Part shown: piece by piece, positions 20,817 through 58,121 of the stretch | Layout: each line of letters starts with the position of its first letter | Numbering within the stretch: the stretch's first letter is position 1 | From: a virus | DNA: 58,478 nucleotides | Virus record (IMG/VR): IMGVR_UViG_3300021170_000022 | Location: 1-58,478 of that record | Strand: one strand, 5' to 3' | Made by a program: the position numbers and the translations under genes | Notes under the pieces: generated by a model | Database searches by the model: none | What the model was told of the DNA's origin: nothing | The model's input: the letters and a program-made list of their open reading frames with translations, nothing else

Positions 20817-21289
20817 TTCGCCGTGTCCCCGAACCGCTTCTTCCACTCCTTCAGCCAGTCGCCCGTCAGAATCTTCTGATCTTCCTCGAGCGTGATCTTG
20901 CCCGCACACAGATCCCGATGCAGCGCCGTTTCCACCGCGTCTTTCTGACGCGCCCCAGGCTTCGGCTCGTAGTACTCCGGCCACAGATTCTCGATCTCAT
21001 TCGAGCCGCCGTTTTCCAGGCTGATCAGGTGATCGATCTCCACCTGGTGCAGTTCGGTCTGCGGAAGCCCGTACCGCCGCATGACTTCTTTCTTCATGCT
21101 CTCGGGAACGTTCCGCACTGTCGCTGTATAGCCCACTACGCACACAGTCTTGTGAATCGTCGCTTGCGTGACGTGCGGATCTTTCGCTCCAGGCGTCAAT
21201 TTCTTATCTGGATAGAGCGATCGTTTTTCGTCGCCCGAAGAAGCGATCGCAGCCAGGCAAAAACCGAACACTATCAGTTTCGTTTTCAT
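20813..21289 (-). CDS. Exported HNH-motif protein
   Basis: This 158-residue protein begins with a signal peptide (MKTKLIVFGFCLAAIASSGD). It contains VEIDHLISLENGGSNEIENL followed by WPE at about 84-105, a clear His-Asn (HNH, beta-beta-alpha-metal) core with His87 as the general base. From memory, small secreted HNH-like proteins of this kind occur in many bacteria and phages. If active it would cut DNA outside the cytoplasm, for example host DNA released at lysis. ATGA overlap links it to the patatin gene. Confidence 0.75.
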   Translation of the reverse strand: MKTKLIVFGFCLAAIASSGDEKRSLYPDKKLTPGAKDPHVTQATIHKTVCVVGYTATVRNVPESMKKEVMRRYGLPQTELHQVEIDHLISLENGGSNEIENLWPEYYEPKPGARQKDAVETALHRDLCAGKITLEEDQKILTGDWLKEWKKRFGDTAK

Positions 21290-38425: not shown

Positions 38426-38712
38426 ACCGCTTCTATGGGCTTAAGCAATTCAACCCTACCCCGAAGCGTCTGACTGAACGCGCCATTCGGCGGTGCGTCA
38501 ACGTTCAGACCTTCCAGCGAGAAATCATGCGGTGGCATATCAGCAACCGCATGCACTTTTCCATCGTGAAACACGTCGTAGGTTTTTGCGATGCCCGCGT
38601 CCGTATCGGCATACCAAACCAGCTTTATCTCGACGCCATCGACAAAGCAACGGCCTCCCATCATTTCGGATGTCTCTTTCGATAGGGGATCTTGCTTACA
38701 GTTGATGATCAC
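38422..38712 (-). CDS. Hypothetical protein of the sugar-modification island
   Basis: The GTG start at 38712 overlaps the upstream stop (GTGA). The 96-residue product (MMGGRCFVDGVEIKLVWYAD, then TDAGIAKTYDVFHDGKVHAV) has no motif I recognise. It seems to be a mixed alpha/beta protein. It is linked by 4-bp overlaps to the deacetylase-like gene on one side and a glycosyltransferase-like gene on the other, so it may serve the same pathway. Confidence 0.55.
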   Translation of the reverse strand: MIINCKQDPLSKETSEMMGGRCFVDGVEIKLVWYADTDAGIAKTYDVFHDGKVHAVADMPPHDFSLEGLNVDAPPNGAFSQTLRGRVELLKPIEAV

Positions 38713-39263
38713 ACCATGTACTCGCGCAAATCCATAAAATGTGGCCAACAACCGAGCGCGTCAATCTCGAGCTGCGTCCGGTAACATGCCAGCGCCCTTA
38801 GCTTCTGCAGGACCATCGCACCGCTACATGCGACCGCATTTCCCCAGGTTGACTTCCCACCCGTCCGCGTATAGGTCAAATAGCCGCTGATCTTCTTACC
38901 CTTGAACACTTCGAGCGCAATCTCGCTCACCAGATTATGCTGCTCATGGCCGCCGGCCTCGATGGCGGGAATCCAGATTTCGTCTGCGTATCCGTCCCAG
39001 TTCATTAAACACGCTCGAACCAATTCCGCCGCCGAAGCGCGCGGCAGATGGTCAGGTACATATCCGCAATCGAACGTACACCCCAGAACAGCCATCGCCT
39101 GGATGTCTTCGCGCCGGCGAGCATCCGCCGAGCATTCCGGATGCCCTCGCTGAACCTGAACATGGCTGTCGAACATAGTCAGCACCGTAGGATGTTCCCG
39201 CTGTAGCGTAAAAGCGGCAAACAGAGCCGCGTCGTCGTTATGCGGCGAGACGAACAATTTCAC
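38709..39263 (-). CDS. PIG-L/LmbE-family deacetylase
   Basis: This 184-residue protein shows the zinc-binding PIG-L pattern: VSPHNDDAAL at about 5-14, ARRREDIQAMAVLG, then EAGGHEQHNLV with His106/His109. Family members remove N-acetyl groups from GlcNAc-containing sugars or related compounds. Placed beside glycosyltransferase genes, it probably de-acetylates an amino sugar in a surface glycan or precursor. No signal is present, so it works in the cytosol. Confidence 0.85.
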   Translation of the reverse strand: MKLFVSPHNDDAALFAAFTLQREHPTVLTMFDSHVQVQRGHPECSADARRREDIQAMAVLGCTFDCGYVPDHLPRASAAELVRACLMNWDGYADEIWIPAIEAGGHEQHNLVSEIALEVFKGKKISGYLTYTRTGGKSTWGNAVACSGAMVLQKLRALACYRTQLEIDALGCWPHFMDLREYMV

Positions 39264-39829
39264 AGTACCGCGAGCCTCCGCTTGATCTCCACCAGATCAT
39301 CGCCGTGCCGCGGTTCCATCCACATGCATCCCGGCTGCGAAGCGTGCTCAAGATCACATATTGGCAGAGCTATCCATTTGAACCGATCCCGATTCAACCA
39401 AGTGAAGACGCGGTCACATTCGCGCTCAAAGACCTCATCCTGCGGGAAGCGCGCCAGATAGGCGGAGAAATCAACGAGGGACTTATCGAACACACTTCCA
39501 TGCCCGATCAGAGCGATTCCCGTTCCACGATAGGCATCGTGGTGGCCGGGCTTCATATTGCAGACCAGCTTGCCCGGTTCGTATTCACTGACGATCTTAG
39601 CGACATCGACCAGCGCATCGTCATCCACCGTAAAAATGACATCGTGCTTGGCGCGCCCAATAGCCTTGTACCGGCCATAGACCAGATGATTCTTCTCACA
39701 CGAGTTGTCCCAAACCACAACTTCGCCCAGGCACCGCATCTGGTCGATCACCTGATGTATGTCCCGATTTCCACGCGTGACCACCACGCCACTGACGAGC
39801 TTCAGATCGATCACAACGGGTGCCTGCAT
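39260..39829 (-). CDS. Glycosyltransferase-like protein (GT-A fold)
   Basis: With ATG 39829 the product has 189 residues. It reads VVIDLKLVSGVVVTRGNRDI, HQVIDQMRCLGEVVVWDN, then YGRYKAIGRAKHDVIFTVDD and DALVD. The run from a nucleotide-binding start to VxxVDDDA fits a GT-A fold with a DxD metal motif. A second part (ERECDRVFTWLNRDRFKWIA) completes the usual length. The 4-bp overlap to the deacetylase gene suggests they form a unit. Confidence 0.75.
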   Translation of the reverse strand: MQAPVVIDLKLVSGVVVTRGNRDIHQVIDQMRCLGEVVVWDNSCEKNHLVYGRYKAIGRAKHDVIFTVDDDALVDVAKIVSEYEPGKLVCNMKPGHHDAYRGTGIALIGHGSVFDKSLVDFSAYLARFPQDEVFERECDRVFTWLNRDRFKWIALPICDLEHASQPGCMWMEPRHGDDLVEIKRRLAVL

Positions 39830-39833
39830 ATCA

Positions 39834-39926
39834 TCACTCACAGTTCGGATCGTCCCAGATGACCAGGATCGGCGTGCCATCTGTTCCCGCCAGAATCGAA
39901 GCCAATGCGAATAGGATCGTCCTCAT
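39834..39926 (-). CDS. Possible 30-residue exported peptide
   Basis: The ATG at 39926 overlaps the preceding stop (ATGA) and the stop lies two bases before the glycosyltransferase ATG. The product is MRTILFALASILAGTDGTPI followed by LVIWDDPNCE. The N-terminal half is signal-like. It may be a leader needed for coupling rather than a functional peptide. Short length keeps confidence low. Confidence 0.35.
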   Translation of the reverse strand: MRTILFALASILAGTDGTPILVIWDDPNCE

Positions 39927-40615
39927 AACGCCATCGGATATTCTCCGTTGATCGCGTACATACGCTCGCCGCGCGGCTTTAATTCTTTCTCACGCATGCT
40001 CGTGATCGTTCTGAGATATCTATTACCCAAAAGCAGATCGATAAACCACTCGGCCGATACCTTCCTCAGATCGATGAGCCCTGGATGCAGGGCCACGAAT
40101 ATGCGAATGTTATCGTTCGAATAGAACCAGGGCGAAGTTTCTAGCGTTTCACCTAGATGCTTTATGTCCAGAGACGGTAGCTTCGTTCCTTTGATATACC
40201 CCAATGCCGTGTATTTTGCGAGCGTCTTATATTCCAATCCCAAGGCATCGGAAAGCTGTGAGAGATTTAGTCCGTCCAGATTAGTACGGAGCTTGTGGTG
40301 GTTAATCCTTTTTATGATCGACCCGCACGTGCGTCTGTGATCTGAAATAGCTTTCAGCTTTTGCTGAATGCTTTCGACACATAGGTGTGCATTCTCACTT
40401 AGACACTCATCTTCAGCCTGCGTCCAGCGCACCTTATCGAAAGTGCGAGTCAGACCAAGCTGCATAGCACGGCGGCAAATAGAGCGCCTCGATCTTCCAG
40501 GAATCTTGCGGGCAGCCGTATTCAGGGAATCGTGTGAATATGCCTGGTCAGCAAAAGACTCGCGCAGGATTTGATCCTCACGATCGCTATAGGGAACCCA
40601 CATATGCGGAGGCAT
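39923..40615 (-). CDS. DNA-binding protein with SANT/Myb-like segments
   Basis: ATG 40615 gives a 230-residue product. The start (MPPHMWVPYSDREDQILRES, then ARKIPGRSRRSICRRAMQLG) and the second segment (VRWTQAEDECLSENAHLCVE, then RRTCGSIIKRINHHKL) have the W/aromatic-ED-x-x-L and IxxRxxxLGL pattern of SANT/Myb-like GcrA-type domains. A further HTH follows (NLSQLSDALGLEYKTLAKYT). A regulator inside the accessory island is plausible. The gene is A+T richer than its surroundings, and its first codons occur again upstream of the gene at 41010. Confidence 0.65.
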   Translation of the reverse strand: MPPHMWVPYSDREDQILRESFADQAYSHDSLNTAARKIPGRSRRSICRRAMQLGLTRTFDKVRWTQAEDECLSENAHLCVESIQQKLKAISDHRRTCGSIIKRINHHKLRTNLDGLNLSQLSDALGLEYKTLAKYTALGYIKGTKLPSLDIKHLGETLETSPWFYSNDNIRIFVALHPGLIDLRKVSAEWFIDLLLGNRYLRTITSMREKELKPRGERMYAINGEYPMAL

Positions 40616-41130
40616 TGCGTTCAAAGTCCGTGCTGACGTAACCATTGATCCCACGCTGGGTATTGGTGTAGCATCGTAAACCAGGCTGAGGGTGCGTGCT
40701 CAAAACGCAGTATGGTGCCAGAGTGGTCGTTTTGGAAAATGGGCACGTAGGATAAGAGATAGTTGGCGTTGGCGTGGATGTCTGGAGTAATCGCTAGAAG
40801 CAGGCAAGTCCAGCCGGAAGAATCGGTGCACGGTGTAAAAAGCGTCTTGACGGTGTCCGAAGCGATCTGGTTCCTAGGATCGATTCGCGTTCCTCCGTAA
40901 GGACCAAACCAGATGTTCACCTGATTTTGGTTTCTAATCTGGGAAGGAGAAACACGAGTCTGAGCAAAACACGCCGTCCAAAGAGAAACCGCCAACAGGA
41001 TTTTCACCATGTGCTCAAAGCCGCCCTTTCCCATTGCCCCGTCGCTGTATGGGACCCATCCACGCGCAGGCATAGCCTTCAAAGCCCGCGCTCGCGCAAC
41101 CACTGATCCCATGCCAGGTCCTGGCGCAGT
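40585..41130. repeat. Imperfect ~90-bp direct repeat flanking a duplicated module
   Basis: The DNA at about 40585-40673 and 41041-41130 aligns at roughly three of four positions. Each copy covers the end of an exported-protein gene (W-D-Q-W-L-R-x-x-G-L-stop) and the following start of the SANT-like protein (NAMPPHMWVPYSD versus KAMPARGWVPYSD). Only the lower-coordinate copy leads into a full SANT-like gene. Confidence 0.7.
40621..41010 (-). CDS. Exported protein, paralogue A
   Basis: ATG 41010 gives 129 residues with a signal peptide (MVKILLAVSLWTACFAQ). The mature protein reads TRVSPSQIRNQNQVNIWFGP, then ASDTVKTLFTPCTDSSGWTC and ends PAWDQWLRQHGL. It is paralogous to the next gene (TRVRPSQIRNAAQLNIWPAN; DLAWDQWLRERGL). 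The two cysteines could form a disulphide. The function is unknown; it forms part of a set of five exported proteins in tandem. Confidence 0.65.
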   Translation of the reverse strand: MVKILLAVSLWTACFAQTRVSPSQIRNQNQVNIWFGPYGGTRIDPRNQIASDTVKTLFTPCTDSSGWTCLLLAITPDIHANANYLLSYVPIFQNDHSGTILRFEHAPSAWFTMLHQYPAWDQWLRQHGL

Positions 41131-41528
41131 GTCAGAATCGCAGCAGGCGAGAAGCAATAACTCAACAAAAACACCTTGAAATCGCAGAAATCTCCGATCA
41201 CGAACTGACCCACGGTACCGTGATCGATGCCAAGTGCTGGGCCGTGATCCGCCAGCGCGTAATTAACAGTCGCCCGGCCTAGATCGGTCGTGGTCACCGC
41301 CTGTACAATGCACACTTCTCCAGCGTCCTGATAGGTCGAGTGGAAGAGGGCGACGACGGTGTCCGTGTTGACCTGACTGACCGGGTGAATCTGAGTCCCG
41401 CCGTTCATATTCGCCGGCCAGATGTTCAGCTGAGCCGCATTTCGAATCTGCGAAGGGCGGACGCGCGTCTGAGCAGAGCAAATCGTCGCGAACAGCACGA
41501 ACAAAATGGTTTTCAGGGAGCTTGCCAT
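41079..41528 (-). CDS. Exported protein, paralogue B
   Basis: ATG 41528, with GGAG six bases before it, gives 149 residues. The signal (MASSLKTILFVLFATICSAQ) is followed by TRVRPSQIRNAAQLNIWPAN and NTDTVVALFHSTYQDAGEVC, then the shared end AWDQWLRERGL. Similarity to paralogue A through the whole length shows duplication followed by divergence. The first 16 bases overlap the end of the preceding gene. Confidence 0.65.
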   Translation of the reverse strand: MASSLKTILFVLFATICSAQTRVRPSQIRNAAQLNIWPANMNGGTQIHPVSQVNTDTVVALFHSTYQDAGEVCIVQAVTTTDLGRATVNYALADHGPALGIDHGTVGQFVIGDFCDFKVFLLSYCFSPAAILTLRQDLAWDQWLRERGL

Positions 41529-42238
41529 ATAGTACTCCACATATTCGGAGAGGAACATAACTTAACAGCCTTAATTGTATTGCCGACCGTCGTTTCGTAC
41601 ATCTCACCGAATGCGCATGTCGGCGGATCGCCAACAGCGAATTTAGCCGGAATCGTCTTGGCTGCGTTGCTGGCGTCCTCGCTGCCAGTATAGGCGTTAT
41701 ACCCTCCCAAATCAGGCACGGTTGCTGAATCGCGAGAGATTAAGCACGGGCCGAGCGTGCAATCGACAATGATCCCATTCCCGGCCATCATTGCATTCTG
41801 CGAGAACACCGAACGCTTATCGGCAACCGCCGTGAATTGACCGTCGACAATCGTCAGATCGGCAACCGGAAACGCCGTATCCGGCACACTCGGATTGATT
41901 ACCGCCTGAGCTGTGATGCTGATATTGGTCGTATCGAAGTTCAGCGTGAAGGCGTTTGGATACTCCAACACTAGAGCGCACGAATCAGCGATATACAGCT
42001 TACCGACCATCGGACCTGAAGAGCCGGATAGCAAGCGAGCTAAAGAAGTGGAAGTGAAGTTATCGCAGACGCGCGTTAGAAACCTCACGCGACCAGCCGC
42101 TACGGTAAGCAAGCCTCCATGGATGGTGGGAGTGAAATCGAGGACCTGCACTCCCGCCAGCCTGGTTTGCCCGAAGCTGAAAGTCAGCGCCAGTCCCAGG
42201 AGCAACCCGCAAAGCAATCCCGCAATCGACTTATTCAT
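41513..42238 (-). CDS. Exported protein, 241 residues
   Basis: The signal peptide is MNKSIAGLLCGLLLGLALTF (then SFGQ). The mature start QTRLAGVQVLDFTPTIHGGL resembles that of paralogues A and B (QTR...). The middle is beta-rich (PNAFTLNFDTTNISITAQAV). The end (ASNAAKTIPAKFAVGDPPTC, then AFGEMYETTVGNTIKAVKLC) matches the C-terminal pattern of phage fibre tips with a GDxxF/Y-ND-like metal or collar motif. A displayed adhesin-like protein is a reasonable inference. Confidence 0.65.
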   Translation of the reverse strand: MNKSIAGLLCGLLLGLALTFSFGQTRLAGVQVLDFTPTIHGGLLTVAAGRVRFLTRVCDNFTSTSLARLLSGSSGPMVGKLYIADSCALVLEYPNAFTLNFDTTNISITAQAVINPSVPDTAFPVADLTIVDGQFTAVADKRSVFSQNAMMAGNGIIVDCTLGPCLISRDSATVPDLGGYNAYTGSEDASNAAKTIPAKFAVGDPPTCAFGEMYETTVGNTIKAVKLCSSPNMWSTIWQAP

Positions 42239-42241
42239 AGG

Positions 42242-42769
42242 TCACTTTCTATAGCGGCAACTGAAGGTGTCACCAGGCTGTGGCACAGTTGCCGTGCTGA
42301 CAAACGTCATCACATTCGCTGACGTTCCAGTTCCAAGGGAGAAATCTACCGGCAACGCTGTTCCGATGACCGCCGTCAACATCAGACCGTTGCGAATGCA
42401 TTCCAAACTCGTGGACGGATTCGGCGCGTCCGGGAGATTGAAGACCAAGTTCACGCCGTCTTGTGTTCCTGATGGGACAACAGGACCCACGAACGTCGGC
42501 CCGGTATTTCCGCTGTTCACGTGCAGAGTGATCGGCGCCGTCTGCGTAGCGGCCGTGATCGTGAACTGCGACGAATCGAGAGCGACGCATCCGAGAAGTA
42601 CGAACACTCCGAACTGAGTCGAGAAGGACACTCCGATGGTCGCCGGAATCTGGATCAATCCGTTGGCGATCGCAGGCACGGGACATTTGATTTGCCCCGC
42701 TGAAATAGCGGTCGGCTGAGCCGCTACAGCCGCCGCGCAAAACAGAGTTGCGAGCAGGATCGATTTCAC
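42242..42769 (-). CDS. Exported appendage-domain protein 1
   Basis: The 175-residue product has a signal (MKSILLATLFCAAAVAAQP). Its C-terminal domain reads GTQDGVNLVFNLPDAPNPST, then SLECIRNGLMLTAVIG and ends PGDTFSCRYRK. The pattern DGVNxxFxLPxAPxPxxSLxxxRNGxxL...GD.....Y is a well-known phage tail/fibre appendage domain. It is paralogous to the next gene. ATGA overlap links the two. Confidence 0.7.
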   Translation of the reverse strand: MKSILLATLFCAAAVAAQPTAISAGQIKCPVPAIANGLIQIPATIGVSFSTQFGVFVLLGCVALDSSQFTITAATQTAPITLHVNSGNTGPTFVGPVVPSGTQDGVNLVFNLPDAPNPSTSLECIRNGLMLTAVIGTALPVDFSLGTGTSANVMTFVSTATVPQPGDTFSCRYRK

Positions 42770-43275
42770 TTTCGGTACTCCCCTGTCGTGATTACCGCTC
42801 CCACTTGAGGCTGCGATCCGCTGATGAATGTGATCACGCCTCCGCCGGCACTACTCGCGGCGACTGTATATTGTGCACCCTGTCTTTGATAGATGCCATT
42901 CACATAGAGCGAAAGGCTTGTCGATGGATTTGGGGCAGCAGATATAGTGAAGATCAGATTCACGCCGTCGATCGTGCCGCCAGGAGTCTCCGGTGGAGAG
43001 AAATTCAGCGGCGTACTCGATCCACCGATTACGCGCAAGGTAGGCGGCTTCGTGGAAGGATCGATCTTGAATCCTATAGGGTCAAACTGCACGCAGGCGA
43101 ATCCAAGCCCAGTTCCCAGCGATGAGCTAACCGGCACCACGACAAAGACGTAGGCCGGGACGCCCGGAGGCACAGCAGTCGGACAGGAGTTGAGCTGCCA
43201 CGGCTGCACCTGGGCATAAATGGAGGCCGATGCCAGCAGCAGAACGATGAGCAGGAAAACGTTTTTAGCTTTCAT
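42766..43275 (-). CDS. Exported appendage-domain protein 2
   Basis: ATG 43275, with AAAAGGAG upstream, gives 169 residues. The signal is MKAKNVFLLIVLLLASASIY (then AQ). The C-terminal domain GTIDGVNLIFTISAAPNPST, then SLSLYVNGIYQRQGAQYTVA and VGAVITTGEYRK is the same appendage fold as in the previous entry. A degenerate copy of the dispersed palindrome (42986-43000) lies in it and again encodes S-P-P-E-T. The alternative GTG 43302 overlaps the upstream stop. Confidence 0.7.
   Translation of the reverse strand: MKAKNVFLLIVLLLASASIYAQVQPWQLNSCPTAVPPGVPAYVFVVVPVSSSLGTGLGFACVQFDPIGFKIDPSTKPPTLRVIGGSSTPLNFSPPETPGGTIDGVNLIFTISAAPNPSTSLSLYVNGIYQRQGAQYTVAASSAGGGVITFISGSQPQVGAVITTGEYRK
42986..43000. 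repeat. Degenerate copy of the dispersed palindrome
   Basis: The sequence GTCTCCGGTGGAGAG differs from the consensus GTCTCCGNCGGAGAC at two right-arm positions. It is read in the same frame as the exact copies (S-P-P-E-T). Confidence 0.55.
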
Positions 43276-43298
43276 AGTTCTAAATCTCCTTTTCGCGA

Positions 43299-44081
43299 TC
43301 ACAGCAAGTCACTGAATAATCGGCGAGCCCGATCGGCAGGAATCTGCTGCCGGCGGCTACGGCCTCGAAATAATGGATCCATCGCGCTGCCCAGATTCAC
43401 GTAGGTCCGTTCGGGAAAACGTTCCCAGCACTGAATCGCCGGAATATTCCCCGCCATGCCGGCGCCATACAGCAGCACGTCGAAGTCGCGAGTTATCAGT
43501 TCATCGGTAAGGGCGCCGGTGTGCGCCAATAGATTTTCCATTGGCGTTTCGATAAATTCCGCACCGAGCATCCTCGCTGCGCCAGCGTTTCCAGCCGGGC
43601 CCATGAACATCTTCCGCCGCGGATCTTCCTTGACAGCCCGATAGAAATCGACCAGAGCAGCCGACTCTCTCATCAGCAGCAACGCCTCGAAGTGCAGCCA
43701 GGTCGGATCCGCATCGCCCACCAGCTCGGCGTAGTCTTCTGCGTAGCGCGAATGCTCCGACAGCGAATCGAATGAAGCCGAAAGCCAGTCGCCAACAAAT
43801 GTGTTCGGACCATTCACCACGCTTTCCCAACACCGCCGCAGCTCTGCGCCGAGGAAATCGGAGTAAGCCTCGCGATCGCACGTCTGCCCGCGCTTTCCGC
43901 GAATGCACTCCAACGCGCCATCTCCATAGCGAACAAAGAAGAATGGATCCCGCGCGCGGATCTCAGCTGCCAGGATCGTCGCACTTGTATCCGCGTTGAC
44001 GGTCGCGTATCGCGCCGGCGCACTATTTTTGGGAATTATATACTTGACTCCCGCACGGGAGTAATCTACAATGGTTGACAT
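43299..44081 (-). CDS. GT-D-fold glycosyltransferase-like protein, N-terminus replaced by IS insertion
   Basis: The product contains DPFFFVRYGDGALECIRGKR, the RxGDGE-like motif of GT-D (DUF1792) glycosyltransferases, and later DVLLYGAGMAGNIPAIQC. The IS element inserted just after its first codons. The present frame begins inside the left IS end (ATG 44081; MSTIVDYSRAGVKYIIPK) and joins phage sequence at NSAPARY. Removing the IS and one target repeat restores a start MAVLLKNSAPARY overlapping the methyltransferase end. The enzyme core is intact, but its native coupling and start are lost. Confidence 0.7.
   Translation of the reverse strand: MSTIVDYSRAGVKYIIPKNSAPARYATVNADTSATILAAEIRARDPFFFVRYGDGALECIRGKRGQTCDREAYSDFLGAELRRCWESVVNGPNTFVGDWLSASFDSLSEHSRYAEDYAELVGDADPTWLHFEALLLMRESAALVDFYRAVKEDPRRKMFMGPAGNAGAARMLGAEFIETPMENLLAHTGALTDELITRDFDVLLYGAGMAGNIPAIQCWERFPERTYVNLGSAMDPLFRGRSRRQQIPADRARRLFSDLL
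44023..44030. repeat. Left target-site duplication CTATTTTT
   Basis: The 8 bp CTATTTTT directly before the left inverted repeat are identical to those directly after the right one (45695-45702). Eight-base duplications are usual for IS1595-type elements. A perfect duplication indicates a recent insertion. Confidence 0.95.
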
Positions 44082-44451
44082 GAAAACAACTCCTTCCGTT
44101 CACACCACACCGGGTCCGTGGGAAGTTCGCACTGGACAGAGAACTACTTTCATCGTTCAACCGCATCAGTTCATCGAATCCGGCGTCTATGTTGCTGAAG
44201 TTTCGCCTCAAGCTGCTGGCGCTGATGGACGGCCAATCCCCGAACAAAGAGCCGCCGATGCTCGAATGATTTCCGCCACGCCCGATCTGGCTAAAGCGCT
44301 TCGCGATCTTTACATCTGCTTTGGAGATCGCGAAGGTGAATCCGAATGGTGGGAAGAATGGGCGGATATTCCAGGAATTGACACGTGCGAGGTCCGTAGG
44401 ATTTGCCTCGATAAAGCTCGCGCTGCGCTTGAAAAAGCAGGGGTGTGCTGA
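44071..44451 (+). CDS. IS passenger protein with an HTPGPWxV...DARxIxxxPDLxxAL pattern
   Basis: This 126-residue protein reads HTTPGPWEVRTGQRTTFIVQ, then AADARMISATPDLAKALRDL and ends in KARAALEKAGVC. The same layout is common in small hypothetical proteins of phages and proteobacteria. It is therefore probably a phage-derived gene carried by the IS. An ATG three codons in (44080) is an alternative start. It ends one base before the transposase ATG, so the two are co-transcribed. Confidence 0.7.
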   Translation: MVDMKTTPSVHTTPGPWEVRTGQRTTFIVQPHQFIESGVYVAEVSPQAAGADGRPIPEQRAADARMISATPDLAKALRDLYICFGDREGESEWWEEWADIPGIDTCEVRRICLDKARAALEKAGVC

Positions 44452-45378
44452 ATGTCTCGCTCTACAATCAGCACCTTTAAACTCTTCGAACTGTTCCCCG
44501 ACGCCGAGTCCGCGCGAACCTATCTCGAAGGCAGGCTGTGGCCCAATGGACTGGCCTGCCCCGAGTGCAAAACCTCGGATCGGATTACGACGCGCAAGGC
44601 CGGTTTCTACCGCTGCAACGCCTGCGGGGATTTCGATTTTACCGTCCGAACCGGAACGATTTTCGAGCGGTCGCACATCCCGCTTAATAAGTGGGTCTAT
44701 GCCATGTATCTGCTCGTCACTGCTCGCAAGGGAATCTCTTCGATGCAGTTGGCTAAGGAGATCGGCGTTACCCAAAAGTCCGCTTGGTTCATGCTTTCCC
44801 GCCTGCGTGAGGCTTGCGGCGATGATTCGGGCATCGATAAGTTGCGCGGGACGGTCGAGGTTGACGAGTGCTTTGTGGGTGGCAAGGAAGCCAACAAACA
44901 CGAATCCAAGAAACTGCACGCCGGTCGCGGCTCCGTCGGTAAGGTTGCGGTTTTGGGGCTTAGGGAGCGCGGCGGACGGACACGGGCAAAGATCATTGCC
45001 GACCGCACCATTCAGACGATCCAAGGTGAGATTCATGCAGGCGTCGAAGTCGGCGCTCAACTTTACACCGATGAGCACGTTGCCTATACAGATCTGGACG
45101 GACTGTTCTTTCGCCATGACACCGTGAACCACTCGGCAGGCGAGTACAAGCGTGGCGCGGCGCACACGAACGGCATCGAGTCCGTATGGGCGGTCCTGAA
45201 GCGTGGGCTTCACGGCGTCTATCACCACGCCAGCCCGAAACACCTTGGACGCTACGTTGATGAGTTCACCTTTAGGCTGAACGAGGGGAACGTCGGGCGA
45301 CACACACTGGAACGCCTTGACTCGTTCGTGGACCGGGTGTCCGGCAAGCGGCTGACTTACGCTAGGTTGACCGCATGA
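44452..45378 (+). CDS. ISXO2-like (IS1595) transposase
   Basis: The 308-residue enzyme has an N-terminal zinc ribbon (Cys36/39 and Cys55/58: CPECK, CNACG). An HTH follows (SSMQLAKEIGVTQKSAWFML). The catalytic domain has Asp138 in VEVDECFVGG, Asp207 in YTDEHVAY, and Asn240/Glu243 in HTNGIESVWAVLKRG. This DDN-type triad plus the SVWxxLKRG helix is diagnostic for IS1595. Length is normal and no frame break is seen, so it should be active. Confidence 0.97.
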   Translation: MSRSTISTFKLFELFPDAESARTYLEGRLWPNGLACPECKTSDRITTRKAGFYRCNACGDFDFTVRTGTIFERSHIPLNKWVYAMYLLVTARKGISSMQLAKEIGVTQKSAWFMLSRLREACGDDSGIDKLRGTVEVDECFVGGKEANKHESKKLHAGRGSVGKVAVLGLRERGGRTRAKIIADRTIQTIQGEIHAGVEVGAQLYTDEHVAYTDLDGLFFRHDTVNHSAGEYKRGAAHTNGIESVWAVLKRGLHGVYHHASPKHLGRYVDEFTFRLNEGNVGRHTLERLDSFVDRVSGKRLTYARLTA

Positions 45379-45542
45379 AGCGCAAGCGGACCAATCGCTT
45401 GACATTGGAGCAACGGTTGGCGAGGGCGCGTCAAATCGCCGAGGATAACGCCAAGCGCCGATGCCCCGATTGCGGGCGTCTATGCCGGTGGACAGCCGGA
45501 AACTACGGAATGCGTGCTCAATGTGAGCACTGCGGAGGCTAA
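45375..45542 (+). CDS. IS passenger: small zinc-ribbon protein
   Basis: The ATG at 45375 overlaps the transposase stop (ATGA). The 55-residue product has a basic helical start (MKRKRTNRLTLEQRLARARQ) and a zinc ribbon (CPDCGRLCRW, then CEHCGG). Such a ribbon could bind nucleic acid and assist the transposase. It is too short for standard gene finders. Confidence 0.6.
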   Translation: MKRKRTNRLTLEQRLARARQIAEDNAKRRCPDCGRLCRWTAGNYGMRAQCEHCGG

Positions 45543-45671
45543 ATGAACAAACCTGTTCCTCCCGAACTGGACCGGATAACCGACAAGGTTTTGGCATACA
45601 AGCCGAAGCCAAAGACGAAGGCCGCGAAGCGGCGCAAGCGAAAGAGGCAACGCGATGCAAAGAAAGGTTAA
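45543..45671 (+). CDS. IS passenger: very basic 42-residue peptide
   Basis: The ATG lies immediately after the zinc-ribbon stop. The product is MNKPVPPELDRITDKVLAYK followed by a Lys/Arg tail (PKPKTKAAKRRKRKRQRDAK). It ends one base before the right inverted repeat. The tail would bind DNA or RNA. It may be a transposition accessory peptide. Confidence 0.5.
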   Translation: MNKPVPPELDRITDKVLAYKPKPKTKAAKRRKRKRQRDAKKG

Positions 45672-45694
45672 CGGGAGTCATGTATATAAATCCC

Positions 45695-46246
45695 CTATTT
45701 TTGAGCAACACAGCCATATCCAAGCGGGAAATTGAAAACGCCCAGCGAAACACGAGCGCGCGGTTCGTGGACAATGACCGAAAACCCAAAGTCACGCAGT
45801 AAGCGCTCCATGCCGGCCTTCGTGAACCGCCATAGATCGGAATCTTCGACCTCGTCCCAGTTCGTGACATAGGTCAGGATCAGGTGGCCACCGGGACGCA
45901 ACCACGCAGCAAAGCCGCGGAGCAGCTCTGGCACGTGTTCGATGTACTGCAGCACCTGGTTGCACATGATCGCGTCCAGCGGCCCCATCGCGGGACTGCC
46001 GTTTAGCCCGTCCCCGATTTCGAACGGAATATACTGGCCGCCCTGCACGAGATCGCTGTATGGCATCTTTCCGCAGCCAAAATCCAACACGCGGCCCTGC
46101 AGATACCGCCGATGCTTTTCCATGAACTGGCGGATACTCGCCCGCTCGATCTGCCTGACCTGGTCGAACCCGGCGAAGTCCCGATCCAGATCGCACTGAC
46201 TCGCGCCGTCAAGCTCCGGCGCCCGCAGGTACCGCAAGCTGATCAC
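45695..46246 (-). CDS. Class I SAM-dependent methyltransferase (third of three)
   Basis: I use GTG 46246: GGAGG lies eight bases before it and GTGA overlaps the upstream stop. The 183-residue product has motif I VLDFGCGKMPYSDLV, then AIMCNQVLQYIEHVPELLRG and LRPGGHLILTYVTNWDEVED. The target cannot be read from the sequence. The last codons lie in the IS target site; the stop TAG is part of CTATTTTT read on the minus strand, so this protein is unchanged by the insertion. Confidence 0.85.
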   Translation of the reverse strand: MISLRYLRAPELDGASQCDLDRDFAGFDQVRQIERASIRQFMEKHRRYLQGRVLDFGCGKMPYSDLVQGGQYIPFEIGDGLNGSPAMGPLDAIMCNQVLQYIEHVPELLRGFAAWLRPGGHLILTYVTNWDEVEDSDLWRFTKAGMERLLRDFGFSVIVHEPRARVSLGVFNFPLGYGCVAQK

Positions 46247-46839
46247 GCCAGCTTCCTCCACACGCCGACCAGCGTCCTACACGGAAACCCATCCAAATCC
46301 TGATCCAGAATCACGCGACGCTCTTCGAACAAATTCGTATAAGAAAGATGCTTGTCCAGCTTCTCTTCCGTCAGCGAATGATCGTGGATCAGGTTGAGCA
46401 GCTCCGGAGGCCTCAGATTGACATGGAGATAAAACCTCCCGCCTGGCTTAAGCAATCGCGCCACCTTTAGCACGACGTAAAAGTCCATCTCGCCATGATC
46501 CAGCGCATTGGTCGTCAAGATCGCATCGAACGTCTCGTTTGTGTCCCAGCGTTCGAAGCATTCGTCGACCTGGCGGATGTCGCCCCGGTCCTCGAGGATG
46601 CCGGCCGCATGATATACCGGGAACAATGGATCGACCGCAAACTTAAGATGGGCGTCTAGATATGGCAACAATCCCCAATGCGGGCCCGTACCGATCTCCA
46701 GAATCTGCGCGTGGCCCCTCGGCACCGTGATCCCGAGCGCCTCCAGATACTGCTTGAGCTGCGCTCGCTCATCGCCCATATCGGCACGAAGCCAATGCTT
46801 CAGCTCGAGCAGATCCTTGTGCGTGAGCGTGAGGCTCAT
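46243..46839 (-). CDS. Class I SAM-dependent methyltransferase (second of three)
   Basis: The 198-residue product has motif I ILEIGTGPHWGLLPYL, then DAILTTNALDHGEMDFYVVL and LLKPGGRFYLHVNLRPPELL. The HEHxxx-type post motif suggests a small-molecule or sugar methyltransferase, not a DNA methylase: no NPPY or DPPY motif is present. It is linked by 4-bp overlaps to the other two methyltransferase genes. Sugar or lipid carrier methylation is a fair guess from the neighbouring glycosyltransferases. Confidence 0.85.
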   Translation of the reverse strand: MSLTLTHKDLLELKHWLRADMGDERAQLKQYLEALGITVPRGHAQILEIGTGPHWGLLPYLDAHLKFAVDPLFPVYHAAGILEDRGDIRQVDECFERWDTNETFDAILTTNALDHGEMDFYVVLKVARLLKPGGRFYLHVNLRPPELLNLIHDHSLTEEKLDKHLSYTNLFEERRVILDQDLDGFPCRTLVGVWRKLA

Positions 46840-47345
46840 TTCACAGCCTCCAGGATCACCATAATTTTATGGCGTTCAGGAGCGTCCGGCGCATACTGGA
46901 TCGGCGTCCAGTTTTTTCCGCTTCGCCCGCCAACGGTTCGGAACAATGCCGTGACCCCCATCCCCGGCCCTAGGCGTCCGCGCTCCCCTCCTCGGTGGTT
47001 CCACTCTTCACAAAAGTAATAACGGGTGTCCGCCGTCCATACCGAAACATGTGTCGGATCGACCCAGGGAGCAACCCCGGGAAGGCACGGAACGTACAGG
47101 TCGAGCTTCCCGCCTGGCCGCAGCACCCTATGCGCTTCATTCAGGCACCAGATGATCCCTTTGTTGCCAGGGAATTCGGCGTTGTCCAGGTGTTCGAACA
47201 CATCATGCGCAAAAATCTCGTTGGCGCTCGAATCCCCCCAGGGCCACGGCTTTCGCAGATCCGCAATCACATCCGCCGGCGCTACGCGGTCGACGTTCAC
47301 ATAGCCGGGCCTATGATCGTCCGAACATCCGAGATTCAGCTTCAT
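46836..47345 (-). CDS. Class I SAM-dependent methyltransferase (first of three)
   Basis: ATG 47345 overlaps the stop of the glycosyltransferase gene (ATGA). The 169-residue product starts MKLNLGCSDDHRPGYVNVDR, the compact motif I of the LNLGCG-type sugar methyltransferases. It continues FAHDVFEHLDNAEFPGNKGI and LRPGGKLDLYVPCLPGVAPW. Such enzymes often sit in surface-glycan clusters. It forms a translationally coupled run with two further methyltransferases. Confidence 0.85.
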   Translation of the reverse strand: MKLNLGCSDDHRPGYVNVDRVAPADVIADLRKPWPWGDSSANEIFAHDVFEHLDNAEFPGNKGIIWCLNEAHRVLRPGGKLDLYVPCLPGVAPWVDPTHVSVWTADTRYYFCEEWNHRGGERGRLGPGMGVTALFRTVGGRSGKNWTPIQYAPDAPERHKIMVILEAVK

Positions 47346-48022
47346 GCCCCCGCGCTCCATGCGTACCCCGGGACTCCAGCAAACCCGGGAACTTTCTGCC
47401 AAGGACCGCCCGAGGTCCGCCGCGGGCTATTGTTCCCGGGATGAATCGTCGCCACCATCAGATCGCCGGCGTCAGCGCTGGCCAGCTGCCCGGCGTTCGC
47501 CGCTTCATTGCTGAACAAAACGTCCGAACCGACCTGCATCGCCGAAAACCGGTGCTTCTCCCACCAATCCCGCCGGAAGCACAGCGATGTCCCCATGGCG
47601 AACGTTGGCGGACCTGGATATTTCCACCAGTCGCGCCCGTCGGTAAACATCATCGTGTGGTAACCGGTCACCGCCTTGCCGCTTTCCTGCAGCCGCTGGA
47701 CCTGGTCCGCCACGCGGCCGGGAGCGCTATAGTCGTCGTCGTCCCACTTGCACACGATCTCCGTCTTCGAAAGCTCGCAGCACAGATTGAACTTCTCCCC
47801 ACTGGTCCGCGGCCGCTCGGGATCCCGAAGCGTGCACAGCGAAATCCGCAGATCGTCTTTCGGGATCAGATCCCCCACTTCTTCTCCGTCCGCGATGATC
47901 AGCATTCTCAAATCCGCGTAGGTCTGCGCCTGAAAGCACGCGATCGCCTTCGGCAGCCACCGCCGCCGATTTCGCGTCGGACAGAAGCACGTGACGCTCG
48001 GATTCGCGTTCATCTCATCCAT
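47342..48022 (-). CDS. Family-2-like glycosyltransferase
   Basis: The 226-residue enzyme has the GT2 start VTCFCPTRNRRRWLPKAIAC (then FQAQTYADLRMLIIADG) and the metal motif EIVCKWDDDDYSAPGRVADQ. YHTMMFTDGRDWWKYPGPPT and ACEA-like VGSDVLFSNEAANAG follow. It transfers a sugar from a nucleotide donor. No membrane helix is present, so its acceptor is cytosolic, on a carrier or on a phage protein. It is the first accessory gene after the head adaptor. Confidence 0.85.
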   Translation of the reverse strand: MDEMNANPSVTCFCPTRNRRRWLPKAIACFQAQTYADLRMLIIADGEEVGDLIPKDDLRISLCTLRDPERPRTSGEKFNLCCELSKTEIVCKWDDDDYSAPGRVADQVQRLQESGKAVTGYHTMMFTDGRDWWKYPGPPTFAMGTSLCFRRDWWEKHRFSAMQVGSDVLFSNEAANAGQLASADAGDLMVATIHPGNNSPRRTSGGPWQKVPGFAGVPGYAWSAGA

Positions 48023-51280: not shown

Positions 51281-52231
51281 TTAAACCTGTTTCAGAGCCC
51301 GCTCGCGATCACGTTGCCTCTGTCTGGCCCTCGCCATATCCATCTGCGTGATCTTGGCCGAGGCCTGTTCCTGCATTGGACAATCAACGCAGTTTTCGTC
51401 TACGCAGTCCGGATTTGAACATTTGGCGCAGTTGCCCTCAACGCATTCCTCGCACCGGCATTCACATTCAGCCTCAGAATTCTGAGGCTCGCTGGTCGTC
51501 GGTGGATTTGGCGGCTGACCCCTGAGCGCCTGGGGAAGTTTCTTCAGCCGCGCAAGTACCTTGAAGCCGCGAGCCATTGCCATTGCAGCCCGCTCTTCCT
51601 CCGCCGGAGGCTCGACGATCGCAGTCGCGAATCCCTGTTCAACGCAATCCTGCGCAGAAAGCCAGGTCTCCTCGTCCATCAACGAACGGATATCTTCTGC
51701 CTTTAGTCCCGTCCGATCGAAATAGGCTGCGGCGATGCTTTCGTCGATCTTATCGAGCGCTTCCGCCATTTTCTGCATATCGCGCGAATTTCCAATACAC
51801 CCAGCCCAGGCGTCGTGGATCATCATCATCGCGCTGCGGCCCATGATCCGTTGGCTTCCAGCCATTGCAATGATGCTGGCGGACGAAGCCGCGATCCCAT
51901 CCACTTGCACAATCACCGGCTTTCCGCTCGAAGTAAGCAGCGAATGGATAGCCATACCCTCAAACGCGTCTCCGCCCGGTGAATTGATCCTCACGCGGAT
52001 GGAGGAATATCCCGTCGAGCCATCGAGGGCCTTCTTCACGGCAATTGCGCTGACGAATCCATCCGTGGAATATCCCCATGCTTCCAACATCGAGATAGTC
52101 GCTGCGTCCACGATATCGCCGTAGATCATCAATTCGAGTACACCGTCGCTCCCGACGGCGGCCTGGAAGTACCGGCGCGAATCTACCTGTGGCGCTGGAA
52201 CCGCCGAGCGACCAAATGCGAATTTGCCCAT
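51281..52231 (-). CDS. ClpP-type prohead protease with a Cys-rich tail
   Basis: The ClpP-like domain (about 20-210) has VRINSPGGDAFEGMAIHSLL, nucleophile Ser116 in GIAASSAS and His139 in MMIHDAWAG. It cuts the capsid delta domain during head maturation. The C-terminal 100 residues are Pro-rich and then unusually rich in Cys and acidic residues (about 15 Cys in CECRCEECVEGNCAKCSNPD and the following stretch). This looks like a metal-binding tail, which I recall from some other phage proteases. Confidence 0.9.
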   Translation of the reverse strand: MGKFAFGRSAVPAPQVDSRRYFQAAVGSDGVLELMIYGDIVDAATISMLEAWGYSTDGFVSAIAVKKALDGSTGYSSIRVRINSPGGDAFEGMAIHSLLTSSGKPVIVQVDGIAASSASIIAMAGSQRIMGRSAMMMIHDAWAGCIGNSRDMQKMAEALDKIDESIAAAYFDRTGLKAEDIRSLMDEETWLSAQDCVEQGFATAIVEPPAEEERAAMAMARGFKVLARLKKLPQALRGQPPNPPTTSEPQNSEAECECRCEECVEGNCAKCSNPDCVDENCVDCPMQEQASAKITQMDMARARQRQRDRERALKQV

Positions 52232-52695
52232 TAGAGTTTCTCCGCAATATACTCAGCCTCGCCGCCGAGTGTTTTGATCAACCGCAGCTGCTGCTCGAGC
52301 CAAGCCACGTGTTCCTCATGCCATTTCAGGAGGTGTTCAAACAAATTCCGTGACGTATCATCCAGGGCTTTCATCGCGATCTGCACCGCGGCTTCGAATG
52401 GGCCTATGATGGCCATCTCGAGAAGTAATTCATTTTGAAAAATTTCCGACAATGTGGCTTGATCGCTAATGTGGCCGATCTCATAGTTGGTGTCGCCCCC
52501 GAGTAATAAGATCCGATCCGCCACTTTTTTCATAAAGCCGTGGGTTTCTGTCCCCAGTTTGTGAATCTTGCGGCTCACCTTACGTATGCCCATGAACTTC
52601 ACGATTCGCCAATCGTGGCGATATTGAACGTTCAAGTGCGCTTCGACCGCGAGCGCCGCTTGTAAGGCCTTAATAACTTCCGAGTTGCCGTTCAT
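52231..52695 (-). CDS. Bacterioferritin-like four-helix protein
   Basis: ATG 52695, six bases after GGAGG, gives 154 residues, the normal bacterioferritin length. Glu18 and Tyr25 (ALAVEAHLNVQYRHD) fall exactly where the E. coli Bfr ferroxidase residues lie. The helices FMKKVADRILLLGGDTNYEI, NELLLEMAIIGPFEAAVQIA and LLKWHEEHVAWLEQQLRLIK align with Bfr. The ExxH pairs are shifted or altered (TETHGF; HEEH), so iron oxidation may be reduced or different. It overlaps the protease gene by one base, among the head genes. Confidence 0.85.
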   Translation of the reverse strand: MNGNSEVIKALQAALAVEAHLNVQYRHDWRIVKFMGIRKVSRKIHKLGTETHGFMKKVADRILLLGGDTNYEIGHISDQATLSEIFQNELLLEMAIIGPFEAAVQIAMKALDDTSRNLFEHLLKWHEEHVAWLEQQLRLIKTLGGEAEYIAEKL

Positions 52696-52714
52696 CATCC
52701 ACCTCCCGCGCGAT

Positions 52715-53149
52715 TTACTTCGCGAAATATCTCCGCGTTCCGTCGCCCTGCTCATCCACACGGCTTTCGATCAGACCCTTCGATTTAAGGCCTGAGCACG
52801 GCGCATATACCTGTTGCGGCTCCAAACCCAGCGCTTGACCGATTTCGAGACTGGACATCGGCTTCTTTTTCAGTGCAGCCAGGATCCTGCCAGGGATGCT
52901 CTCCGAGCTAATTGAACCGGCAGTTTTAGCCGGCAATTTCTTGTGCCGCGCCGCCGGGGCCGGCAATGCATTATTTAGCCGGCCTCGTTTCAGAGGAGGC
53001 CCATTCTCCACGGCCGATGCTCCGGTCGACCCGGGAACACGATGCGTCTCCATTTGACGCCCACCCCCCCCCAGTACCGCCGCCAAGACGTCGCCGAATC
53101 CTCCCGTCGCATCCTCAATCTCGATCTGGACTACACGCAATTTCGCCAC
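52715..53149 (-). CDS. Winged-helix DNA-binding protein within the head operon
   Basis: GTG 53149 gives a product of 144 residues. The N-terminal half is loosely folded (EIEDATGGFGDVLAAVLGGG, then a Pro/Lys linker). The C-terminal winged helix is clear: IPGRILAALKKKPMSSLEIG, then QALGLEPQQVYAPCSGLKSK and GLIESRVDEQGDGTRRYF. It looks like a transcription regulator but could be a head-assembly protein. No palindrome copy lies close by. Confidence 0.65.
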   Translation of the reverse strand: MAKLRVVQIEIEDATGGFGDVLAAVLGGGGRQMETHRVPGSTGASAVENGPPLKRGRLNNALPAPAARHKKLPAKTAGSISSESIPGRILAALKKKPMSSLEIGQALGLEPQQVYAPCSGLKSKGLIESRVDEQGDGTRRYFAK

Positions 53150-53156
53150 GTTATTT

Positions 53157-54740
53157 TTACTCCAAAATCTCTGCTGCAAGCGCGCGATATGTCTGCTCGG
53201 TAGTGCGCGTCGCGATTGCGGACGCATCCTTACTCGCCCAGCTGGCCGCAGCCGTTGTCAGCTCCCTAATCTGCCCGTCAATGACGGCAAGTTCACGCCG
53301 TGTTAGCTCGCAGTTTCCGAATCGGAGGGCCAGCATCGCCTGAGCCATCGAGCTAATGACGGGCCTCATTGCGACCGTGCAGGCGTGCGCCCGCTTGTCG
53401 GGCTCTCTCCGGATGACCCTCCCCACTGCATCCCTGAAAAGCTTCCGATAGGCTGGCGCCAGGCGGTTGAATGGCTGCGATGCACCTTCATCGCTGTCGG
53501 TCTCGCTGGTCTCAGGAGAGGCCTCTTCCAGCAGCAGCGCAGTCAATGGAATCATCGCTCCCTGAACAGTCCGCACGTCCCCGCCTTCTTCAGATGGGAT
53601 CGGGTTTTGACGCATGGCCTTCAGAATGTCGTTTGCCGAATAGACCCCGATGTTCCGCAGCGTTTGAAATCCGCTGGTCTGGCTGGCGAAATCGCCCCGT
53701 TGCAGATCGTTTAGATTGTGCTCCATGATGAATGGACCGTCGAGCAACTTCCGATTCACTTCCTGCTCGATCCTGACAGCATTAGGTCGCAAGCAATAGC
53801 GCACATGATCGAGCGATTGATGCTCGATATTGTTATTCGTGGCGCGCTGTAGGTCCTGCAGTAGGTGCATCGCCATGCGATACAGGGATGCAATTTCAAC
53901 CCGCTGGAACTGACGTGTAGTCAAAAATTGCGCTTCGTTTGGAGGAATGGTGATCTGCTGCCACTTCATTCCCTCCTCAAGCACGATAGGACGGAGCGCC
54001 TGATCGCCAGTCATGAGCTCCCGGAGAGATTTCTTGATGTTCTCCTGCGCTTCTTCTTCCAGCACTCCAGGGTGCGTGAGTATCCCTGTCGCCCTTGCAC
54101 CGTTGCCGAAAAATTGAGCCCCGAATTTCTCCGCCGCAAGAGCTAGGCCGAATGCATTTTTACATAGCTGAATGGGACTGAGCCCATTTACCCCATCGAA
54201 ACTTGCATACATGATATGCAGTACGTCTTCGGGATCCAGATGGACCGCGGCGCCGGTGTCCGTCTGCGTCGTCGCATATTTGAGTTCACCGGTAGGCAAT
54301 CTAACTGAAGCCGTCTTTCCAGACTCCAATGGCACCAATTCAATCACGCGAGCTGCTCGGTCCCGTTTGATCCAAGCGTAGCCGTTGCCCCATGCGAGCA
54401 TCGATGCCAGCAACGCGCCCCAGAATACGGATGCCGTCATATGACGATTCGGCTGATCATGGAGAATTGCCCACAATCGGTGATTCGTTGCCAGCCGCAC
54501 GCTGCCATCCGGCATGTGTTGCAGAATTTCATGGGACGTTGTTCCAAGGTCCTCGCTGATGATCTTGATGCAGGCCAAAGCGGTCGTAATCCGCATCGCC
54601 TGCTTTTCATTGATGAGAACACCGGCATCCGATCGCCCCAATCCAAGAGATTCGAACAGCGCTGACTGAGGAAGCAGCGGCTGGGCCGGATCCTCGAGCG
54701 TCATTGCTTGCACGCCAAGACTACGGCTTAGCAGCCCCAT
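53157..54740 (-). CDS. Portal protein, HK97/lambdoid type
   Basis: This 527-residue protein reads MRITTALACIKIISEDLGTT, then HRLWAILHDQPNRHMTASVF and WGALLASMLAWGNGYAWIKR, followed by LDPEDVLHIMYASFDGVNGL, FGNGARATGILTHP and the EGMKWQQITIPPNEAQFLTT block. All are hallmark portal pieces in the right order. It forms the twelve-part ring for DNA packaging and exit. Its length is slightly above the usual 400-470, due to a C-terminal helical extension. Confidence 0.95.
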   Translation of the reverse strand: MGLLSRSLGVQAMTLEDPAQPLLPQSALFESLGLGRSDAGVLINEKQAMRITTALACIKIISEDLGTTSHEILQHMPDGSVRLATNHRLWAILHDQPNRHMTASVFWGALLASMLAWGNGYAWIKRDRAARVIELVPLESGKTASVRLPTGELKYATTQTDTGAAVHLDPEDVLHIMYASFDGVNGLSPIQLCKNAFGLALAAEKFGAQFFGNGARATGILTHPGVLEEEAQENIKKSLRELMTGDQALRPIVLEEGMKWQQITIPPNEAQFLTTRQFQRVEIASLYRMAMHLLQDLQRATNNNIEHQSLDHVRYCLRPNAVRIEQEVNRKLLDGPFIMEHNLNDLQRGDFASQTSGFQTLRNIGVYSANDILKAMRQNPIPSEEGGDVRTVQGAMIPLTALLLEEASPETSETDSDEGASQPFNRLAPAYRKLFRDAVGRVIRREPDKRAHACTVAMRPVISSMAQAMLALRFGNCELTRRELAVIDGQIRELTTAAASWASKDASAIATRTTEQTYRALAAEILE

Positions 54741-56219: not shown

Positions 56220-58121
56220 TCATGCGCGAATTGCCATTGAATCCGCGGGCAGCGTCAACAAGCCCCTGCTGGCGTATATTGACCGCTTCGGCGCGCTTAC
56301 CAACAGCCTTGATAGCGTCATTAAGGCCGCCACAGCGCCGTCGATCTTGTTTTCGTCATCGTCCTTTCGCGGAAAAACGTGCTCATTAGCATCCTGGTGC
56401 GCCGTAACGTTCCCGATCATCCAGTTCATGATCGGATTCCCATCGTGATGGATGCGGCCCTCAACAATCAGCGCGTCCATCTCTTTCATCAAGGGAGAAA
56501 GCGTTTTTACGTTGCGCGGCACTTCCACCGGCTGCGCCTTCGTAAGCTTGCCGATGCATTGCGACAACTGCGCAGCATTCCACGGGTCATATGCGAGCTC
56601 TCGAGCCTTATACTCGCGGACATCATCCAGCGTCTCGTTCTGGACCAGCTCCAAGTCCACGACCGCGCCGGAATGGATCGTCATGTGCTCTTTCCAGCCG
56701 TGATAGTGTTGCGACTCCGGCCGCGCCACCTGCGCCTGCGGCAAATAGAACCGCGGGAAGAGAAAATAATGATCCTTTCCGTTGACGATCTTCTTGAATC
56801 CGATAATCCGCGCCGTGAAATCGCGCTTCGTCGACAAGTCCAACCCCACCGCGCACGGCAATCCTACGAATTGACGCGGATGTAGCGAAGCGTCGCCCAA
56901 CTCTTTCCATTGCTGGAGATTGAAATAGGCCTCATTAGCGCCTACCCACACACACAGGTGTTTGGTCTTGAACACACCCTGCTTCCGCGCGGTTTGAATC
57001 GCGGCCGACTGCTCCGTCACCAGGTAATCGCGAAAAACGCTCACATCGAAGTTCGGATTGGCCTTAATCAATGCGGCTTCCGACGTCCAGTCGTCCTTCG
57101 GATCGATCGTGTAAATGATCCCGAATACCTCGTCGCGTACCACGGACCCTGCCAGGATTTTCACGATATCGACCTGCAAGAGTTTGCACGGCCCCGCCAA
57201 CTTGAATCCAGCCGTCGTGATTACGAGTTGTATCGGCTGCTGCCGCGCTCCCATGCCGGTACGCAGCGTATCGAAGAGCGTGTCCGAGTCGTGTTCGTGA
57301 TATTCGTCGACAATCCCGCAGGTCGGCGACGCGCCGTCTCCCGGCTTCCGGACTACCACTTCGAAACGCGACCCATCCTCCGGAATGCGCATTTCCTGGC
57401 TGGTCGGGCTCGCGATCTTCACGCCGAGGAATTGCCGCAGCTCAATGCTTCGGTGAAGCATTAGCAGCGCCGGCCGGAAAACCTCCATCGCCTGGTCTTC
57501 CTTGGTCGCACCGCTATAGACCTCCGCGCCGAATTCGTTGTCGCAGGCGAACATATAGTCGCCGATGATCGCAGCCAGAATCGATTTTGCGTTTTTCCGC
57601 CCCACCTCGACGTAGGCGAGCGAAAATCGTCGCATCCCCGTCGAGCGCTTTACCCACCCGAAAAGGCAGCACAAGATGAAAATCTGCCACGGCTGCAAAA
57701 CTATCAGCTCCGCATTCGCCGCCCAACTGCCCTTCACATGCGGTAGCAGCTCTGCGAACCGGCAGATTCGATCCGCCTTGGCCTGATCGAACCGGTAGCC
57801 CCAGTCCCTCTTCGCTAAATCGTCCAAATGCCGGCGGCAGGCCATTTTCACCGTGTCACAAGCTGAAATTTCATCGCGAATTACCCGCCACGCATAATCT
57901 TCAGCGATGCCCGAAAAATCCTTAGATGCGGATCCCGATGCGAACCAACGGGCCGCAAACCCGATACTCAGCTTCGGCTGGATCTCATCCCATGCCGCGC
58001 CTCGTTCCGCCTCGGATTTAAACGCACTCGCACCATTCGGACCGAGGAGCAATTCGATTACCTGCGCCCGCGAAATCTGGTCGCCCGGCCTTACCCGAGC
58101 TTTACGATTAATTCTTGCCAT
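56220..58121 (-). CDS. terL: Terminase large subunit
   Basis: This 633-residue ATPase/nuclease pumps DNA into the head. The ATPase half has LQPWQIFILCCLFGWVKRST, Walker A VEVGRKNAKS at about 171-180, YSGATKEDQAMEVFRPALLM and Walker B CGIVDEYHEHDS. The nuclease half has the Asp-rich AVGLDLSTKRDFTARIIGFK and later AYDPWNAAQLSQ and HDGNPIMNWMIGNV. This is the classical large type that pairs with P27-like small subunits. The start overlaps the terS stop. Confidence 0.97.
   Translation of the reverse strand: MARINRKARVRPGDQISRAQVIELLLGPNGASAFKSEAERGAAWDEIQPKLSIGFAARWFASGSASKDFSGIAEDYAWRVIRDEISACDTVKMACRRHLDDLAKRDWGYRFDQAKADRICRFAELLPHVKGSWAANAELIVLQPWQIFILCCLFGWVKRSTGMRRFSLAYVEVGRKNAKSILAAIIGDYMFACDNEFGAEVYSGATKEDQAMEVFRPALLMLHRSIELRQFLGVKIASPTSQEMRIPEDGSRFEVVVRKPGDGASPTCGIVDEYHEHDSDTLFDTLRTGMGARQQPIQLVITTAGFKLAGPCKLLQVDIVKILAGSVVRDEVFGIIYTIDPKDDWTSEAALIKANPNFDVSVFRDYLVTEQSAAIQTARKQGVFKTKHLCVWVGANEAYFNLQQWKELGDASLHPRQFVGLPCAVGLDLSTKRDFTARIIGFKKIVNGKDHYFLFPRFYLPQAQVARPESQHYHGWKEHMTIHSGAVVDLELVQNETLDDVREYKARELAYDPWNAAQLSQCIGKLTKAQPVEVPRNVKTLSPLMKEMDALIVEGRIHHDGNPIMNWMIGNVTAHQDANEHVFPRKDDDENKIDGAVAALMTLSRLLVSAPKRSIYASRGLLTLPADSMAIRA

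Follow-up and report, generated by a model that had tools for sequence, protein, structure and literature searches.

The window analyzed here, an IMG/VR virus record of 58,478 bases, carries on its minus strand a gene for a 154-residue protein (positions 52231..52695) that we tentatively assign to a phage-specific branch of the bacterioferritin (Bfr) fold, encoded by an accessory gene of the head-gene block. Our main reading, to which we give a probability of about 0.45 on the basis of sequence comparison and modeling, is that this is an accessory protein made together with the portal, with a Bfr-type fold and a remodeled metal site, that would work with the prohead.

Results

Genomic context of the Bfr-fold gene

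Apart from its head genes, the window encodes an integrase, a ParB-like protein, and long tail-type ORFs. The head block runs along the minus strand in the order terminase large subunit (56220..58121), portal protein PF04860 (53157..54740), winged-helix gene (52715..53227), Bfr-fold gene, ClpP-type head maturation protease of 316 residues (51281..52231), and major capsid protein PF05065 (49731..51134). The terminase, portal, protease, and capsid were identified by profile search, and the Bfr-fold gene by profile match, alignment, AlphaFold, and Foldseek. The winged-helix gene, the start of which is uncertain, was recognized by weak MarR/HTH matches and by a C terminus resembling that of its counterpart in locus L040. 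The Bfr-fold gene therefore lies between the protease and a winged-helix gene, as the original prediction had it, with the portal beyond. It is preceded by a Shine–Dalgarno sequence, GGGAGGTG (52700..52707, minus strand), and its stop codon shares 1 nt with the protease start in a TAATG junction (52229..52233, minus strand). While these two elements of the predicted operon arrangement are present, the expected overlap on the 5′ side is not, as a gap of ~20 nt is found there. Because two ATGs stand side by side at the start of the gene, an additional Met may be present at the N terminus. No second Bfr gene is present in the window record.

Several other features of the window were recorded. An IS1595-type transposase gene (44452–45378, plus strand) lies within the minus-strand structural region and is possibly an insertion in this phage. 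Glycosyltransferase 2, methyltransferase, and PIG-L-type deacetylase domains are encoded between the tail and head genes (38709–48022, minus strand), and a patatin-like phospholipase (21286–22161, minus strand; PF01734, 1.2e-23) is encoded in the tail/lysis region. In addition, ~20 copies of a 9-bp unit (11393–11570) inside a minus-strand ORF encode an Ala/Phe-rich repeat.

Fold and family assignment

The protein matches PF00210 Ferritin with an E-value of 2.9e-16 and 60.1 bits, against a cut-off of 24.5, and is thus a member of the ferritin superfamily. It also matches TIGR00754 bfr (7.5e-20), although at 71.5 bits the score is below the equivalog cut-off of 125.55 and does not mark it as a bacterioferritin. 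Along its full length it aligns collinearly with Bfr, apart from a single 1-residue gap. An AF2 model built from 18 sequences has a mean pLDDT of 95.0 and contains five helices, including the short helix E; the best Foldseek matches in the PDB are bacterioferritins, with a TM score of 0.96, an RMSD of 1.1 Å, and ~30% identity. Structure prediction thus returned the Bfr fold and no other, in agreement with the original description of a full-length Bfr-like protein. The divergent member L114 is also modeled as a confident helix bundle, with the last helix in one piece with helix D. The mean identity of the phage family to sampled cellular Bfr is ~26%.

Relatives and selection

We found 24 relatives in IMG/VR, all on viral contigs and 46 to 72% identical. 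A first scan yielded L002 (72%), a scan with the L002 protease yielded L082, and an alignment of the three sequences led to the 24 loci; further scans that used different peptide patterns, one of which covered the N terminus only, returned no new loci. The motifs FEHLLKW (residues 119–125) and A[LF]DDT[TS]RN are invariant partly by construction, because both served as search patterns, and loci recovered by N-terminal patterns alone still carry them; E18, E93, H126, and H129 were absent from the family-scan patterns. Two scans of GTDB bacterial genomes with narrow patterns of the window/L002/L082 type returned no family member, and given that specificity prophage copies may exist. None of 18 members matches any PHROG (v4) at an E-value of 0.001.

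The family is under purifying selection, with dN/dS values of 0.05 to 0.14 in pairs with dS from ~0.1 to 2, which indicates that the remodeled protein is maintained and excludes a decaying gene. With 24 homologs under such selection, the match of the window gene is not due to chance. Inactivating changes in relatives had been named beforehand as evidence that would count against the proposal, and none of the relatives appears inactivated. We also rejected the idea that the gene was recently captured from a host, since no relative above ~33% identity was found in plasmid or phage records and none in the narrow bacterial-genome scans. The INPHARED match CAKLQH020000007 was set aside as it includes smc and ligA, bacterial genes by annotation, and appears to be chromosomal; the further INPHARED matches, MT837148 and MT835709, are both unannotated. 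That ordinary Bfr is carried in head modules was likewise rejected, a control scan with canonical Bfr having returned two contigs, in both of which Bfr lies near a prophage integrase.

A remodeled metal site

Ligands were counted in 25 sequences, the 24 relatives and the window protein, with E. coli Bfr numbering, and were located in the window by alignment (all on the minus strand). E18 (52642..52644) is kept in all 24 family sequences that reach the position, and E94, which is E93 in the window (52417..52419), in all 25. The segment T51-H52-G53-F54 (52534..52545) has lost E51 and H54, which are replaced across the family by A/T/S and F/W/Y, respectively, no member keeping either residue. E127 is His in 25 of 25 (H126 in the window), while H130 (H129) is retained in 23 of 25, giving H126-x-x-H129 (52309..52320) in place of E127-x-x-H130. 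Among six sampled cellular sequences, E51 and E127 are present in all, and H54 and M52 in five. The original prediction was borne out in its statements that Glu18 and Tyr25 are kept and that both E-x-x-H pairs are changed; the retention of E94 and H130 and the replacement of the heme ligand go beyond it. Position 52, the heme Met of Bfr, is His in 21 of the 25 sequences, the window included, and Gly in four, as in the L114 group, so the family lacks the bacterioferritin heme ligand.

No member, then, has the complete set of Bfr di-iron ligands (E18, E51, H54, E94, E127, and H130): with E51, H54, and E127 replaced, every sequence lacks the two bridging glutamates of the center and one of its histidines. 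Ordinary Bfr ferroxidation and Met–heme ligation are unlikely because the di-iron ligands and Met52 are replaced family-wide, and heme binding through Met52 was discarded as the residue is absent. For the same reason, iron storage, which had been offered as one possible function, is unlikely to proceed by the normal Bfr mechanism. If the geometry is that of Bfr as we take it to be, a single metal could be held by the surviving E18, E93, H126, and H129, and the phage protein probably binds one metal per subunit.

A conserved slot beside the portal

Upstream context is available for 23 relatives, and in 21 of them the Bfr-fold gene lies directly after the portal gene and ahead of the head protease gene, and in most relatives it overlaps the portal stop codon by 4 nt (ATGA). 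The other two are L103, in which a short stretch separates it from a Mu-F gene upstream, and L117, in which it lies between two Phage_capsid genes (L117:8796-12055); the remaining relative, L113, is truncated. In the window itself, the winged-helix gene separates it from the portal. The genes upstream encode portals of the PF04860 or the lambda-type PF05136 family and, in one case, a Mu-F protein; the downstream proteases are of the ClpP, S78, or S49 type or are PF25209 capsid fusions. In L110, the portal gene has an in-frame TAA (L110:7422-7424) close to its 3′ end, which may reflect a sequencing error, a truncation, or recoding.

In the window, L040, and L083, a winged-helix gene occupies the portal–protease gap, which is empty in L007; the Bfr-fold gene is absent from L007 and L040. 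No other ferritin takes its place in portal relatives, none of 50 records having any ferritin match. The Bfr-fold gene is thus dispensable and patchy among portal relatives. That phages with unrelated heads keep the gene in the same slot suggests a function, so far undescribed, in assembling the head or late in infection. Of the originally proposed functions, a putative head-linked role is favored by the conserved portal-adjacent position across unrelated head modules.

As a second metal-type feature, the protease of the window carries a Cys-rich C-terminal tail, CECRCEECVEGNCAKCSNPDCVDENCVDC, with nine Cys in ~30 residues (51380..51466, minus strand; from sequence), and tails of the same type occur on ClpP-, S78-, and S49-type head proteases of these phages. 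The Cys-rich cluster was found in 12 of 14 carrier clusters versus 4 of 47 portal-ascertained non-carriers (Fisher 8e-8, a value confounded by kinship). These clusters were drawn by hand at ~95% portal identity, and L107 and L103, which depart from the common motif, were counted by Cys density. Many tail-bearing phages have no Bfr-fold gene, and the apparent association of tail and gene is a lead only.

Exchange between head modules

Between groups, portals are 14 to 43% identical versus 45 to 72% for the Bfr-fold proteins, and the Bfr tree rejects both the portal-A/ClpP group (AU p 0.0007) and the portal-B/S78 group (AU p 0.003) as single clades. A comparison of L097 with L108 places the exchange at a single gene. 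Nucleotide identity is 91 to 98% in the portal gene, falls to ~60% in the Bfr-fold gene, and returns to 94 to 99% soon past the protease start; the portal proteins are 97% identical, whereas the Bfr alleles share 65%. In this pair, sequence identity along the locus indicates that the Bfr-fold gene was swapped as a single unit and kept in place. As portal and protease were unchanged by the swap, it argues against tight coadaptation with head proteins, including any one portal, and so favors an accessory or cargo role over that of a shell part.

Discussion

We propose that the Bfr-fold protein would be made in late infection, its translation keeping step with that of the portal. In place of the di-iron pair, a single Fe or Zn may be bound by E18, E93, H126, and H129, in which case the protein would not be a fast ferroxidase. 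It may assemble into a Bfr-like dimer or shell and would act as cargo or an accessory component, either at the prohead or within it, with a logic like that of the ferritin-like cargo of HK97-fold encapsulins. That the di-iron-stripped fold is a prohead or virion component, a metal-binding cargo beside the portal that forms a phage counterpart of encapsulin–ferritin and travels as a one-gene cassette across unrelated heads, is a possibility that we hold with some doubt.

The main rival, which we think unlikely, is a host-directed late protein that joins host Bfr shells as a ferroxidase-dead subunit without the heme methionine and alters host iron storage or release, its place in the head operon providing late timing only. 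Bfr shells are known that combine subunits of different function, one of them without ferroxidase residues (PMC6529640, PMC12120770), and the in-place swap of divergent alleles between near-identical phages would fit adaptation to different hosts. However, the low mean identity to sampled cellular Bfr speaks against such partnership, and timing alone leaves the strict portal-adjacent position across unrelated head modules unexplained.

Gene position also bears on the remaining explanations. In one, which takes up the protection of packaged DNA from oxidation suggested at the outset, the protein would be an antioxidant or metal scavenger, the remodeled site of which would bind Fe or Zn and shield packaged or replicating phage DNA from Fenton chemistry, with no need of a place in the head. 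The four retained ligands are consistent with this, as are the Dps-type ferritins of other phages, for which a protective role has been proposed (PMC6669764, PMC8008677); but with E51, H54, and E127 gone, the known route by which Bfr oxidizes Fe(II) is closed, and the gene placement is left unexplained; we consider this reading improbable. We give still less credence to a passenger gene without head function, carried in a portal–protease gap that tolerates extra genes. The varied content of that gap and the patchy presence of the Bfr-fold gene are what a passenger would show, but its repeated arrival beside highly divergent portals, the 4-nt portal coupling, and purifying selection exceed what tolerance of the site predicts. 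The accessory protein working with the prohead is the reading we prefer.

Compared with known systems, the family is closest to bacterioferritin (TIGR00754), with which it shares length, the five-helix subunit, and positions E18, Y25, E94, and H130, whereas E51, H54, E127, and Met52 are replaced, the score is sub-equivalog, and the gene belongs to a phage head operon. Hetero-oligomeric Bfr, such as Magnetospirillum Bfr2 and Shewanella SoBfr12, likewise combines the Bfr fold with a degraded di-iron center (PMC6529640, PMC12120770). However, Bfr2 supplies heme binding and has a paired cellular subunit, whereas position 52 in the phage family is His or Gly and the window record has a single Bfr gene. 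Encapsulin systems resemble the phage arrangement in having a ferritin-like gene beside that of an HK97-fold shell protein, a likeness known in the phage case from gene order only; the encapsulin cargo EncFtn has two main helices (PMC5012862) rather than a full Bfr-type fold and belongs to an organelle rather than a phage head. Host Bfr has been found, by two peptides, in CsCl-purified AXL1 virions (PMC9206674).

Members of the ferritin superfamily are also encoded by phages. Dps-like proteins occur in Lactobacillus phages (PMC6669764), where the copies lie near replication genes, and in Gratiaviridae (PMC8008677); in BFVD, phage proteins that bear the name Dps or prohead protease have ferritin-like regions of 12 to 16% identity. 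Unlike the present family, these phage proteins are of Dps or another ferritin type, at 9 to 16% identity, and none forms a Bfr branch beside the portal. Three BFVD entries from uncultured phages, A0A6J7WIS1, A0A6J7XDU5, and A0A6J7WPK9, carry the name prohead protease and match our model with TM scores of ~0.72; structure match and name suggest that ferritin-like domains are fused to head proteases elsewhere. The one paper joining Dps, ferritin, and prohead protease is apparently a Xenorhabdus OxyR study and was put aside. No description of a portal-coupled, Bfr-derived family was found in the literature searched, a body that leaves most subscription journals and preprints outside its coverage. 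Ferritin-like proteins are already known in a few phages, and a Bfr-derived family fixed next to the portal across several kinds of unrelated head module is apparently undescribed within this partial coverage.

If the Bfr-fold protein acts on host ferritin, it would represent a new late host-takeover device. If instead it sits in particles, iron in phage heads would become directly testable, and encapsulin–ferritin biology would be linked to true phages.
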